DNA from: Synechococcus sp. C9
GTDB taxonomy: Bacteria > Cyanobacteriota > Cyanobacteriia > Gloeomargaritales > Gloeomargaritaceae
DNA: 64,000 nt
NCBI RefSeq assembly: GCF_022984075.1
Contig: NZ_JALAAD010000001.1
Location: 310,001-374,000 of the forward strand
Reading direction: 5' to 3'
The notes under the pieces were generated by a model, which was given only the letters and a program-made list of their open reading frames with translations, did not search any database and was not told where the DNA came from. This document shows positions 23,762 to 27,980 of the stretch, piece by piece (positions within the stretch are counted from its first letter, which is position 1; each line of letters opens with the position of its first letter). The translations under genes were made by a program, and so were the position numbers.

Positions 23762-24295
23762 GTGTTGGGGGAATTTCGCCAGCGGTATCCCTTGGGATGC
23801 CTGACCAGTGAATTGCTCCAAATCCATGAGGGGCAGTACCTGGTGCGGGTGACGGTGCAAGCGGGCGGGGTGACTTTGGCAACGGGGCTGGGGGGGGGAA
23901 CGACGATTGAAGCCGCAGAAGACCGGGCCCGGGAGCGGGCATTGGTGGCCTTGGGGCTGACCCCACCCCCAGTTAAGGAACCCAACCGTCCCGTTTTACC
24001 CCCCACGGAAGGGAAACCACCGCCCCCAGCCACGATTGAAACCCAGGCGGTGACCACCGTGACCCCTGCCCCAGCAACGGTCGAAACCCCCGCCCCCAAG
24101 CTGGATATGTTGGACGTTTTGGCACAGACGACGGCGGAGATGAAGCGGTTGGGGTGGAGCAATACCCAGGGGCGGGAGTATCTGCGGCGCACCTATGGCC
24201 GGAACAGTCGTCAGGATTTGAATGACCAGGAATTGCTGGATTTTTTGCACTATCTCCGCAGTCAGCCTGCCGGGAATCCCGACCCGCTTTCCTAA
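23762..24295 (+). CDS. Conserved cyanobacterial protein with dsRBD-like start, unknown function
   Basis: This 177-residue protein starts (GTG 23762) 14 bases after the CAAD gene. Residues 1-65 (FRQRYPLGCLTSELLQIHEGQYLVRVTV and GLGGGTTIEAAEDRARERALVALGL in shape) resemble the beta-beta-beta-alpha layout of RNA/DNA-binding or Rad52-like small domains. A Pro/Thr-rich linker at 68-112 leads to a helical tail, LGWSNTQGREYLRRTYG and ELLDFLHYL. That tail pattern I associate with DNA-annealing or ssDNA-related proteins, but I cannot name the family. A start further upstream is possible. Confidence 0.65.
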   Translation: MLGEFRQRYPLGCLTSELLQIHEGQYLVRVTVQAGGVTLATGLGGGTTIEAAEDRARERALVALGLTPPPVKEPNRPVLPPTEGKPPPPATIETQAVTTVTPAPATVETPAPKLDMLDVLAQTTAEMKRLGWSNTQGREYLRRTYGRNSRQDLNDQELLDFLHYLRSQPAGNPDPLS

Positions 24296-24349
24296 ATCCA
24301 CGTTGTACGCTCGGCAGGTTTTTGCCCAAGCCCGCAGTGGCCCCAAAGG

Positions 24350-25090
24350 TTAAATCGTGTAATGTTCTGCTAGATATTTCACCGTTGCTGGACCTATGTT
24401 TTTGATTGAGAGAAACTCTTGGAAACTCTGAATAGGGGAATGATTTTGGAGGAAATTAAAAATAGCTTCGGCATTGGGTTTAGTGATAGGTTTAGGATGT
24501 TGTTTTAACTCTGCTAATGTAACTTCATGGATGTTTTTCTTGGGCGGTGGTGGCGGGGGCGGGGGCGGCAAACGGTCGAGGATTTTGTTGATTTGGTTCT
24601 CGAAATTATGTACTGTAAATCGGAGTTTCTCGTCTAACTCTTGGGAGAATATTCTTAACTTTTGGTCAATAATTTCCGTAAGAATAATGCGTATTTCTTG
24701 AGCAGATAAGTGAACGATAGATTCAGATGAAAGTTCCTGGGGCTGAGCAGTTGTATTCAGCAATTGCTCAATCTGGGTAATTTGTTCATTAGTTAGGTCG
24801 AATACCCAAACCCAGATTTTTTTCAGACCTGCTCGTTTAGCCGCTTGATACCAATCCCCGCCATAGATTAACTCATACTCCTGGTCTTCCCCATATTGAT
24901 CCGTCCGCCGGACAACAATCGGATGTAAATTAGCCTGAAAATGATTGATGATTTCCACATATCCATCTGGTGGCGGAATCACTTGTTTTTCGGGCACATA
25001 AATCTGCGATATATCCAGTTGCCCATGATGAATGGGTTTAACTTTCAAGTATTCGATAATTTTTTGACGTTCAGCCTCGGAGTAATTCAT
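24350..25090 (-). CDS. ParB/Srx-fold protein with C-terminal helix-hairpin-helix
   Basis: This 246-residue protein pairs with the nuclease-ParA gene upstream (20-base gap, same strand). Residues about 22-95 are a ParB-like fold: HPIVVRR at 56-62 and YELIYGGDWYQAAKRAG at 72-88, which aligns with the ParB box but has GGDWYQ where partition ParB proteins have GERRxR; CTP binding is therefore doubtful. Residues 125-172 form a charged helical stretch, then nine prolines (175-183), then a helix-hairpin-helix-like end FLSIKNIGPATVKYL at 226-240, suited to DNA binding. No HTH like that of true ParB is visible. The gene is AT-richer than its neighbours, pointing to transfer. Confidence 0.72.
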   Translation of the reverse strand: MNYSEAERQKIIEYLKVKPIHHGQLDISQIYVPEKQVIPPPDGYVEIINHFQANLHPIVVRRTDQYGEDQEYELIYGGDWYQAAKRAGLKKIWVWVFDLTNEQITQIEQLLNTTAQPQELSSESIVHLSAQEIRIILTEIIDQKLRIFSQELDEKLRFTVHNFENQINKILDRLPPPPPPPPPKKNIHEVTLAELKQHPKPITKPNAEAIFNFLQNHSPIQSFQEFLSIKNIGPATVKYLAEHYTI

Positions 25091-25110
25091 AATGGTTTCC
25101 AGGAGTAGTC

Positions 25111-26523
25111 TTATGGGGTTGTCAGTTGAATCACATACTTTGCCAATTCTAAATAGGCATTAAACGCATCCAGAGCCGCTTCTTTCTCACTTGTACTGAG
25201 GTTACTATCATACTCTGCCCAAGCCAAAGGATAACCTTTCCCTGGGGTATTGGCGACAATGTTGCGCTGGGGTATCCAAGTATTTTCAGGAAAGACTGGC
25301 ACCATCGCACCCAGGGGATGATGATTTAAGATGCGATTCATTTCCTGAAGCATTTCGTAGGCTTGTTTGGTAGCGGAACGATTGTACATACTGACCGCCA
25401 AACCTAAAACGTTTAATTGTCCATCCCGTGCCGCACGAATAGCCATAATCCGATTCATGACATACTCTAAGGCTCGAATCGGATAAGGTGCCAATTGGGT
25501 CGGAATTAAAACATTATCCGAAGCCATCAAAGAAATAGTATTGACTTTGCCAAAGGATGGGGGCGGGTCAATAAAAATGTAATCATAATTCGCACGAATT
25601 TTACTCAATTTTTTTGCCAGAACCCGGTCAACATCAATGATCTGTATTAGAGTGGCTTCCATGTCACTCAAACGAATATGGGAAGGTACAATATCTAAAA
25701 CAATTTTATTCCAACGCTTAGAAATAATCGTATCCGCAACGTTCACACTATTTTCAGTCAACAGGTGCGTAATGTCTTTTTTGTCTTGTTGTTCCACATC
25801 TAATAACGGGTCAATGCCCAAACCCGTCGTTAAGTTTGCCTGCGGGTCAATATCAATGAGTAAAACCCGTTTGCCTAAATGGCTGAGGGCGGCAGCCATA
25901 TTAATGGTGGTCGTGGTTTTGCCTACCCCACCTTTGTTGTTAAATACGGTAGTGATAATAGCTGAGGTTGGGGCGGTCGGGCTAGGGGCATTAGCTGTCA
26001 TGGGATTAGGAGGAGTCAGGGCACTGGCGGGAAAAAATTTGTACAAATTCATCATAACCTGTTGGTGAAATGCAATACGAGTTTTTTGGAGATACTGACT
26101 GACTTGTATGCTGGTGGGACGACCGAGAACGATACGCAACCGCTGGAGGTTATCGGCAAATTCCTGTTGATTGTATCGGCATAGGGAGATGATTTCTTGA
26201 TGATTTTGATAAAACAACTGAAATTCCAAACCGTTGGTGAGTAAACCAAACAAGGCTTGGCTGTGCCGTAAATAATCATGTAATTGCCAAACTTGATTGT
26301 TGAGCTGGCATCGAGGTGCTTTAACTTCAATCACCAGATAGGGAATTTGGAATGGGGTCTGGTTTGGTAAACATAGGATAAAATCCGCTCGTTTCCGACC
26401 AAGCCACACTTCCCGTTGCCAATCGGATTCCTGATACCCCCAGGACTTTAAGAGGGGAATAATGAGCTTTTGTTCGATGTCTTTTTCCGTACTCCTGCGG
26501 GAGATATTCTTGAATAATTCCAT
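25111..26523 (-). CDS. HsdR-N-like nuclease domain fused to ParA ATPase
   Basis: This 470-residue fusion starts at ATG 26523. Residues 1-130 match the N-terminal nuclease domain of type I restriction R subunits: helix with E14, RADFIL with D47, LVIEVKAP with E66 and K68, then the NQVWQLHDYLR helix, so the PD-(D/E)XK set is intact. After a linker with many Pro/Ala/Thr (167-188), a ParA/Soj ATPase follows: deviant Walker A NNKGGVGKTT at 195-204, LIDIDPQANLTTGLG, and Walker B YIFIDPPPS. The C-terminus (TPGKGYPLAWAEYD) is also ParA-like. ParA normally moves plasmids or chromosomes with ParB. The fused nuclease suggests a defence or mobile-element role, which is inference. Confidence 0.82.
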   Translation of the reverse strand: MELFKNISRRSTEKDIEQKLIIPLLKSWGYQESDWQREVWLGRKRADFILCLPNQTPFQIPYLVIEVKAPRCQLNNQVWQLHDYLRHSQALFGLLTNGLEFQLFYQNHQEIISLCRYNQQEFADNLQRLRIVLGRPTSIQVSQYLQKTRIAFHQQVMMNLYKFFPASALTPPNPMTANAPSPTAPTSAIITTVFNNKGGVGKTTTTINMAAALSHLGKRVLLIDIDPQANLTTGLGIDPLLDVEQQDKKDITHLLTENSVNVADTIISKRWNKIVLDIVPSHIRLSDMEATLIQIIDVDRVLAKKLSKIRANYDYIFIDPPPSFGKVNTISLMASDNVLIPTQLAPYPIRALEYVMNRIMAIRAARDGQLNVLGLAVSMYNRSATKQAYEMLQEMNRILNHHPLGAMVPVFPENTWIPQRNIVANTPGKGYPLAWAEYDSNLSTSEKEAALDAFNAYLELAKYVIQLTTP

Positions 26524-26538
26524 AATTCTGAAATGAGT

Positions 26539-26580
26539 GTAACACCGTGATATACTTAACCAAGGTAACACTTGCAACAC
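26539..26580. promoter_or_regulatory. Candidate operator: repeated GTAACAC
   Basis: Between the divergent nuclease-ParA and gloB genes, GTAACAC occurs at 26539-26545 and 26565-26571, with GCAACAC at 26574-26580. The spacing of the first two is 26 bases. These could be ParA/ParB-type binding sites or an operator; this is inferred from position and repetition only. Confidence 0.35.
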
Positions 26581-26593
26581 GCCTTGGCGAGAG

Positions 26594-27364
26594 ATGCGGA
26601 TTGAACGGCTACCGGCTCTGCGGGATAATTACATTTTTGTCCTCTGGGATGAAATGGGGGGACAGGCGGCGGTGGTTGACCCAGCGGAACCCGCACCGGT
26701 TTTAGATTTTTTACGCACGCAACGATTAGAATTAACCGCTATTTTGAATACCCATCATCACGGGGATCACGTGGGTGCCAATCAGGATTTATTGCATTAT
26801 TTCCCCAATTTAACGGTTTATGGAGGGGCGCAGGATCGGGGTCGGATTCCAGGACAAAATGTATTTTTAGAAGCAGGAGATCAGATAAATTTTGCGGATA
26901 GAACTGCCAGAATTTATTTTGTGCCTGGGCATACCCGCGCCCACATTGCTTACTATTTTTTACCCACAGTACAAGAGCCAGGGGAACTTTTTATTGGGGA
27001 TACATTATTTTCGGGGGGATGTGGTCGTTTGTTTGAAGGCACCCCTGCCCAAATGCTTAATTCCCTGGAGCAAATTCGCTCGTTACCCGCCGATACTCGG
27101 ATATGGTGCGCCCATGAATATACGGAAAATAATTTACGGTTTGCCCTGACCATTGAACCGGAGAATATAGCCCTGAGAACTTATGCCCAGCAGGTACAAC
27201 AGTTACGCCGGGAAGGAAGAGCCACCATTCCCAGTACGATAGGTTTAGAGTGCGACATTAACCCTTTTTTGCGCTGGGATCAACCGAGGATTCAACAGGT
27301 GATGGGGACACGATCACCTGTGGCAACATTTACCCAATTACGCCAACGCAAAGACCATTTTTAA
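26594..27364 (+). CDS. gloB: Hydroxyacylglutathione hydrolase (glyoxalase II)
   Basis: This 256-residue metallo-beta-lactamase-fold enzyme hydrolyses S-lactoylglutathione to lactate and glutathione in methylglyoxal detoxification. The metal motif [11 protein letters not shown] is at about 53-63, with [26 protein letters not shown] and CAHEYT supplying the remaining ligands. The C-terminal HAGH domain ends [11 protein letters not shown]. Full family length, start ATG 26594. Confidence 0.96.
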
Positions 27365-27386
27365 GATGATTCTATAGCACTCATAA

Positions 27387-27511
27387 CTATAGCAATCCTA
27401 CTTGATTTGCATTAGCTTGCGTGCCGTAGGCATACAAAAATTTTTCAGAACCAAAGACGGGGGCGGTGCCCCTGCGACCCCCTCTTCGATTCTCATTTAG
27501 GATTGCTATAG
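27387..27511 (+). repeat. Dispersed MITE-like repeat, type 1 ends (125 bases)
   Basis: Perfect 13-base terminal inverted repeats, CTATAGCAATCCT at 27387-27399 and AGGATTGCTATAG at 27499-27511, enclose the core CAGAACCAAAGACGGGGGCG then GTGCCCCTGCGACCCC. There is no coding frame inside, so if mobile it would depend on a transposase elsewhere. Confidence 0.88.
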
Positions 27512-27594
27512 AATTGAATAGGAGTCGCAATTTTTGTGCATTGATCAAGTAAAATTGCTATACATGATGGTTTTAATCCTTTCGTGATCATCCA

Positions 27595-27969
27595 ATGCTG
27601 GACACGATTGTATTAAATAATATCCGTGCTTATGGATATACGGGTTTGTTACCGGAGGAACGCACCCTGGGACAATGGTTTGCGGTGGATGTGCGTTTGG
27701 AATTGTGCCTGGAAAAGGCGGGTCAAACGGATGACATACGGGATACTTTGGATTATCGGGGGGTGATTGACCAAATTAAAAATACGATTAGAACCGAGCG
27801 GTTTTTACTCCTGGAACGGCTGGCGCAGGTGCTGACCCAACAGGTTTTGGCATTTCCTTTGGTGCAGGCGGTGACCTTGCGGGTGACCAAGGTGGCTCCC
27901 CCCATTCCCGATTTTACGGGGCAGATTAGTATCGAACTGCATCGTGGTAAAGTGCAGGTACAGTCCTGA
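27595..27969 (+). CDS. folB: Dihydroneopterin aldolase
   Basis: This 124-residue enzyme converts dihydroneopterin to hydroxymethyl-dihydropterin and glycolaldehyde in folate synthesis. Family motifs are the start LDTIVLNNIRAYGYTG, the catalytic-region Glu in LPEERTLGQWF, TLDYRGV, and the KVAPPIPDFTG stretch with the conserved Lys. Normal length. It ends 11 bases before recJ, so the two are probably co-transcribed. Confidence 0.95.
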   Translation: MLDTIVLNNIRAYGYTGLLPEERTLGQWFAVDVRLELCLEKAGQTDDIRDTLDYRGVIDQIKNTIRTERFLLLERLAQVLTQQVLAFPLVQAVTLRVTKVAPPIPDFTGQISIELHRGKVQVQS

Positions 27970-27980
27970 GGTGCGCTGGG

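Follow-up and report, generated by a model that had tools for sequence, protein, structure and literature searches.

What a ParA-type ATPase might do when it carries a nuclease domain and is encoded beside a ParB-like protein is the question raised by a two-gene locus of Synechococcus sp. C9. The window analyzed here is the whole stretch of 64,000 nucleotides (contig NZ_JALAAD010000001.1, positions 310,001 to 374,000), in which genes A and B form a minus-strand pair, with B downstream of A across a gap of 20 bp. The pair is flanked by a hypothetical gene (23762-24295, plus strand) and by glo2 (start at 26594, plus strand). A sequence-only reading of this DNA had proposed that A fuses ParA to an HsdR-N-like nuclease built on D47, E66 and K68. 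The open frame of gene A spans 25111-26580 on the minus strand, and choosing the conserved ATG at 26523 gives a 470-aa protein with the following features.

25111..26523, minus strand: gene A, PD-(D/E)XK nuclease domain plus ParA ATPase (470 aa, ATG at 26523)
26170..26490, minus strand: HsdR-N-type PD-(D/E)XK domain, residues 12-118 (Pfam HSDR_N_2 and fold topology of the model)
26383..26385, minus strand: codon of D47, catalytic by sequence (kept in 42/42 subfamily I proteins)
26320..26328, minus strand: codons of E66-x-K68 (kept in 42/42 subfamily I proteins)
25966..26133, minus strand: linker, partly helical, residues 131-186 (model: helix 135-163, low pLDDT 166-185)
25114..25965, minus strand: ParA/Soj domain, residues 187-470 (fold search; dN/dS 0.054)
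25912..25935, minus strand: deviant Walker A KGGVGKTT with signature lysine K197 and K202 (motif in sequence)

Both halves of A are recognized by Pfam, with HSDR_N_2 at residues 15-105 (E=4.3e-9, which clears the family cut-off) and AAA_31/ParA at E=1.2e-49. Inspection of the AlphaFold2 model (mean pLDDT 85) reveals an N-terminal domain of order alpha-beta-beta-beta-alpha-beta, in which D47 lies on the second strand, E66 ends the third and K68 follows just after, such that the D, E, K triad is predicted to sit on a PD-(D/E)XK core fold. The identity of this domain rests on Pfam together with model topology; the fold-search list was filled by matches of the ParA domain, and the best match of the N-terminal domain among PDB sequences was only BpuSI (E 0.12). 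For the ParA portion, the modeled residues 187-468 superpose on Soj with a Z of 34.6 and an rmsd of 1.7 Å over 253 residues (34% identity), and the fold of McdA is matched at Z 30. Pfam and the model together show that A combines a predicted PD-(D/E)XK nuclease with a complete Soj-like ParA ATPase, which confirms the proposed fusion with a residue numbering that fits the 470-aa protein.

Gene B encodes a shorter protein that resolves into a ParB-like portion and a tail.

24350..25090, minus strand: gene B, ParB-like partner of 246 aa (Pfam, model, fold search)
24740..25042, minus strand: ParB/PadC/sulfiredoxin-like domain lacking GERR, residues 17-117 (alignment and fold search)
24572..24703, minus strand: long predicted helix, coiled-coil-like, residues 130-173 (model)
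24542..24571, minus strand: polyproline tract (sequence)
24353..24541, minus strand: HhH DNA-binding-like tail, residues 184-246 (ComEA match Z 7.1; dN/dS 0.65; swaps in relatives)

Pfam detects ParB_N in B (E=7.4e-7) along with a weak HhH match. The structure model of B has a mean pLDDT of 85, and fold searches place residues 17-117 closest to PadC (Z 11.9) and then ParB (Z 11.8), while residues 184-246 match the HhH domain of ComEA (Z 7.1). GERR is the triphosphate-binding (CTPase) motif of ParB. Its position reads GGDW in the window's B, and GERR occurs neither in the B alignments nor in the motifs extracted from subfamilies I-III. B also has no central parS-reading HTH, in that no HTH match was returned and the model passes from residue 117 into a long helix and then the HhH tail. 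The earlier description of a ParB-like fold without the ERR arginines, followed by a polyproline tract and an HhH end, is borne out in each of these parts.

Comparison across relatives, which yields the strongest new evidence, indicates that the ParB-like end of B stays constant while the tail varies. Tail classes were assigned by Pfam and by reading, regex classes being too crude; Pfam places HHH_3 in L033, HeH/SAP/Rho_N-like modules in L035 and L044, and Rho_N in L161 and L144. A third tail, with the signature EYWK...LTWxN, is found in subfamily I (L034, L038, L091, L124) and subfamily II (L106, L225), and the HhH, SAP/Rho_N-like and third modules recur across subfamilies, tail classes being shared among I, II and III. 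The clearest view comes from Nostoc CCCryo 231-06 (L116) and NMS2 (L117), where A is 96% and the B N-domain 94% identical yet the tails are unrelated. From the upstream gene to codon 168 of B, with A included, their DNA is collinear at 93.4%; homology then breaks off, the tails being HhH in one and SAP/Rho_N-like in the other (22% identity), and 91% identity resumes after the tail in the downstream flank and glycosyltransferase gene. Judged from these alignments, one syntenic locus has exchanged its tail as a cassette. L131 and L124 are likewise 94% identical in the B N-domain and 23% in the tail. Between the window and its closest copy (G002), nonsynonymous changes number 31 over the 63 codons of the tail and 5 over the 117 codons of the ParB-like domain (Fisher P=5e-11). 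The HhH tail is the fastest-evolving part of B (dN/dS 0.65), with a dS of 0.38 that is also raised, so that selection and the import of a diverged tail are equally possible explanations. Sequence and model together show B to be a predicted ParB/Srx-fold adaptor with an exchangeable DNA-binding-like tail, and the architecture of the pair and the swapping of its tails are well supported.

The homologue search for the exact fusion returned a real family with the partner adjacent. We gathered 114 non-redundant A proteins in three subfamilies, all from cyanobacteria or their phylum, with the window pair in subfamily I. The closest copy, in a Gloeomargaritales genome (G002, record OV696605), is 95% identical in A and 84-85% in B. 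Subfamily I occurs in 3/7 searched genomes of the genus, the third copy being G005 and the other four genomes lacking it. The search for the fusion across genomes covered 386 genomes of the phylum. A strong nuclease-ParA of subfamily I or II (E < 1e-37, well separated from weaker matches) is present in 63 of them and a strong subfamily III partner in 35; 23 have both and 75 at least one. Co-occurrence of I/II with III exceeds independence (P ~3e-12), a value that common descent and genome size confound. When 84,980 species genomes were scanned with a subfamily I B motif, all 36 loci found were cyanobacterial.

Conservation of the putative active site is close to complete. D, E and K are each kept in 42/42 subfamily I proteins; the counts are 32/33, 33/33 and 32/33 in subfamily II and 39/39, 39/39 and 37/39 in subfamily III, where K is replaced by E in L153 and L154. 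The triad is therefore intact in at least 110 of the 114 A proteins, the reverse of a nuclease site mutated in most members, and the Walker A motif NKGGVGKTT is present in 104/114. For the window compared with G002, dN/dS comes to 0.12 in the nuclease domain (residues 1-130), 0.054 in ParA and 0.077 in the ParB-like domain, set against 0.12-0.17 for the neighbors glo2, folB and recJ. By these rates, the nuclease domain is under purifying selection, like the neighboring housekeeping genes.

Genes A and B travel together, as gene order across the family shows: in 108/114 cases A is followed directly by a gene on the same strand, at a median gap of ~0 bp, and almost every one of these genes is B-like. 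The remaining six A genes comprise four at contig ends, one in G030 (which encodes its subfamily I B at another place) and a copy in G104 that is frameshifted. Subfamily I B genes without an adjacent subfamily I A occur at L096-L099, L102, L095, L100 and L119; at L096-L099 and L102 the lone B adjoins a complete subfamily II pair, and G208 (L100) holds the B although its genome gave no match to a subfamily I or II A. Among genomes that could be viewed in full, none was seen to have a complete A and no B. This pattern of decay suggests that A is costly alone, which is consistent with restriction or addiction. Natural variants of A include a ParA without the nuclease domain (L123, 4137-4985), a nuclease with a truncated ParA (L136, 4289-4993) and a decayed A (L135).

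With regard to mobility, subfamilies I and II were seen on chromosomes only, whereas III occurs on plasmids as well; homologues are mostly chromosomal rather than confined to plasmids. Subfamily I B had no match among 72,556 plasmids and none in IMG/VR, and A matched phage records through its ParA domain only; a prophage or plasmid origin of the window pair was set aside on these grounds. The mobile-element idea of the sequence-only reading is thus weak for subfamily I, but subfamily III is carried on plasmids and phage-like contigs. Nostoc sp. UHCC 0870 holds III pairs on three plasmids, alongside canonical ParA/ParB and ParM (unnamed4), ParA and ParM (unnamed9) or canonical ParA/ParB (unnamed10), so the pair is not the sole partition system of those three plasmids. 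Pseudanabaena plasmids also carry III pairs, and on the 12.6-kb ABRG53g the pair is the sole ParA pair found. The phage-plasmid pLBA of Leptolyngbya boryana carries a III pair, the only ParA pair in the scanned parts, together with a terminase gene, and a full III pair lies on an IMG/VR contig (L201). On another IMG/VR contig (L202, 4605-5675, plus strand), a gene in a virion-like cluster encodes a domain related to the III ParB-like protein, with no A beside it.

Chromosomal surroundings lend little to the defense role that had been put forward. Neighbors of subfamily I are mainly housekeeping or metabolic genes (glycosyltransferases, desaturases, ilvD, tRNA synthetase and similar), and the Nostocales loci are syntenic, which implies long vertical inheritance. 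PADLOC families reach at most 3 of the 98 neighbors of the loci from genome contigs, mostly generic kinases and ParA, in a count made without a matched control set; with no clear pattern, a defense island was rejected. Neither defense nor the cutting of unpartitioned DNA is borne out here.

Comparison with known systems indicates that the parts are familiar and that the combination is, as far as searched, new. The pair resembles ParABS/Soj-Spo0J in its Soj-like ParA with a deviant Walker A (KGGxxK[TS]) and in a downstream partner with the ParB N-domain fold; it differs in the intact predicted PD-(D/E)XK nuclease of A, in a B devoid of GERR and of the central HTH that binds parS, and in the exchangeable HhH/SAP/Rho_N-like tail. 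A shares the HSDR_N_2 domain and its D...ExK with HsdR of type I restriction, but its motor is ParA rather than an SF2 helicase and no HsdM/HsdS genes lie beside the pair. Exchange of target domains in HsdS resembles the tail swapping of B, by analogy only, in that a recognition module resides in a separate subunit. McdA, of the McdA/McdB carboxysome positioning system, is likewise a cyanobacterial ParA-type ATPase, with no known nuclease, and McdB is not known to be related to the ParB fold. PadC of Myxococcus, the best structural match of B residues 17-117, is a ParA-recruiting adaptor rather than a centromere clamp; it binds CTP and links ParA to bactofilins (PMC12704722), whereas B lacks GERR and has DNA-binding-like tails. 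GmrSD and SspE also couple a ParB/Srx fold to a nuclease in conflict systems, but there an HNH nuclease is fused to the ParB-fold protein itself, without ParA (PMC5512222), and SspE matches B weakly (Z 3.7).

No family describing full A or B is present in Pfam, NCBIfam, PHROGs or PADLOC; against PADLOC-DB 2.0, A gave weak single-domain matches only (best E 2.5e-9, in the ParA part) and B none. RefSeq names the plasmid copies 'AAA family ATPase', 'ParA family protein' and 'Rho termination factor N-terminal domain-containing protein'. A 2025 survey of ParB folds (PMC12704722), which also reports ATP/GTP binders, found ParB-DUF3850 to be the only fusion consistently next to parA. That survey demanded Pfam gathering scores, and several B proteins fall below them, so the family could have escaped it. 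The polyvalent-protein survey (PMC5512222) describes ParB-fold DNases, not a nuclease-ParA with a B partner, and the HEPN survey (PMC3710099) proposes dyads of HEPN with ParA/Soj as toxin-antitoxin pairs. The literature searched, with subscription papers and preprints outside its scope, holds no description of a nuclease-ParA fusion; the earlier statement that none had been seen stands within these libraries and this literature, and the family is apparently undescribed.

Architecture and tail swapping together suggest targeted DNA cutting or replicon conflict, not ordinary chromosome partition. We favor a predicted ATP-gated DNA-targeting nuclease used in replicon conflict, at a probability of roughly 0.5, over modified partition. 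For cleavage, contact between A and B, ATP gating, phenotype and biological role, we infer the following scheme. The tail of B would bind chosen DNA, and its constant ParB-like domain would dock on the ParA domain of A, itself seated on DNA as an ATP sandwich dimer; docking or ATP turnover would then license the nuclease to nick or cut the B-carrying DNA. Such a module could limit plasmids, phages or rival elements; its changing targeting part would be the tail. A swapped DNA-binding tail, a constant docking domain and a conserved nuclease are what would be expected if the target changes and the machine does not, which fits replicon conflict. We count in favor of a targeting nuclease the intact triad, purifying selection, operon, tail exchange, the decay pattern of G208 and the coexistence of III pairs with canonical ParA/ParB or ParM. 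Against it we count the lack of a PADLOC model match, the housekeeping neighbors and the vertical-looking synteny. The tails are also generic DNA binders (HhH, SAP/Rho_N), such that sequence specificity is only putative, and the ParA-only variant L123 and the sole ParA pair of the 12.6-kb Pseudanabaena plasmid, which fits partition, weigh on the same side.

Tail change could also reflect centromere turnover, and modified partition or positioning is the main rival, although we consider it rather unlikely. Here A would move or anchor B-marked DNA as in ParABS, the nuclease-like domain would be a DNA-binding or topology accessory, and the swaps would track changing centromeres or incompatibility groups. 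A Soj-like ParA domain (Z 34.6) with a full Walker motif, a ParB/PadC-fold partner within the same operon and carriage of III on plasmids, as the sole ParA pair found on ABRG53g and in the scanned parts of pLBA, all suit this account, and DNA-binding ends are renewed in partition systems too. It is harder to reconcile with a B that lacks GERR and the parS-reading HTH, a near-invariant triad under purifying selection, the canonical ParA/ParB or ParM also held by the three Nostoc plasmids, and no iteron array adjoining the window pair. Chromosomal genome maintenance, for instance end processing or cleavage of abnormal DNA in polyploid cyanobacterial chromosomes, appears less probable again; it would explain why I and II lie on chromosomes only, syntenic in Nostocales and among housekeeping genes, and a structured or non-specific DNA substrate would be in keeping with HhH and SAP tails. 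Its patchiness (any subfamily in ~75/386 phylum genomes, I in 3/7 of the genus) argues otherwise, and tail exchange and plasmid carriage would be unusual in a repair enzyme. The asymmetric decay, with B lacking an adjacent A at several loci and G208 lacking any subfamily I or II A, is also what a toxin-antitoxin-like addiction pair would leave if the A nuclease were harmful alone and restrained by B, and the HEPN-ParA/Soj dyads (PMC3710099) are a proposed precedent. We nevertheless judge addiction improbable: a large ATPase-nuclease with a DNA-binding partner of swapped tails is atypical, II and III pairs show no other toxin-antitoxin hallmarks, and loss of A before B is also expected of a costly defense. 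Least credible is a catalytically dead relic kept for DNA binding: the K to E change in 2/39 subfamily III proteins (L153, L154) and the missing domain of L123 speak for it, but at least 110/114 A proteins keep all three triad residues.

A more specific form of the targeting-nuclease reading, which we put forward tentatively and below even odds, is DNA interference retargeted by recombination, in which a ParA-gated nuclease would be directed by an adaptor that exchanges its recognition tails as cassettes. If true, cyanobacterial chromosomes and plasmids would redirect the destruction of rival or foreign DNA. To our knowledge, ParA ATPases are known to position cargo rather than to command a nuclease; a conserved nuclease-ParA whose ParB-fold adaptor has swapped tails would extend the ParA/ParB-fold repertoire into DNA targeting. 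Such a module would also be a candidate barrier against plasmids or phages in cyanobacteria, which matters for their genetic engineering, and it is directly testable through point mutants and natural tail pairs.

The DNA around the pair bears on two further claims. GTAACAC repeats had been offered as binding sites of the ParB-like protein, and one feature holds two copies 26 bp apart upstream of A.

26524..26593, no strand: divergent intergenic region shared with glo2, 70 bp (GTAACAC copies at 26539 and 26565)

The window contains 4 copies versus 4.6 expected by chance, which leaves that role unsupported, and a centromere built from them was dropped. The pair had also been described as AT-richer than its surroundings. 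Its low GC is real (A 43.5%, B 40.6%), but the patch is larger than the pair, given that glo2 (47.6%) and folB (50.1%) are low as well; GC of 46-50% extends through these genes (window 26500-27970), with recJ beyond at 58%. In G002, B abuts a 248-aa gene (L031, 11241) whose orthologue lies ~370 kb off in the window's genome, which implies a rearrangement breakpoint just after B (window 24290-24350) in one of the two genomes. An empty site could not be used to argue recent insertion because gene order is shuffled within the genus, and G001, G003, G004 and G006 show no remnants of A or B next to either glo2 or the downstream gene.

Several further arrangements were observed. The window's own genome holds a second, divergent pair (L144, G000:C1 ~751.3-752.7 kb), a subfamily III nuclease-ParA with a ParB-like/Rho_N partner and a KGGVAKTT Walker motif. 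A stand-alone ParA of 294-333 aa with the motif ATANMKGGVGKTTLTVN lies divergent and upstream of subfamily I A at seven loci from different genera (L112, L118, L125, L132, L141, L034, L093); a functional link or shared old synteny is possible. An AAA-ATPase and TOPRIM-like pair lies upstream at L091. At L103 (4078-10151), a frameshift-split subfamily I pair and a subfamily II pair lie close together in one locus, adjoining DUF2779-like and helicase-like genes.
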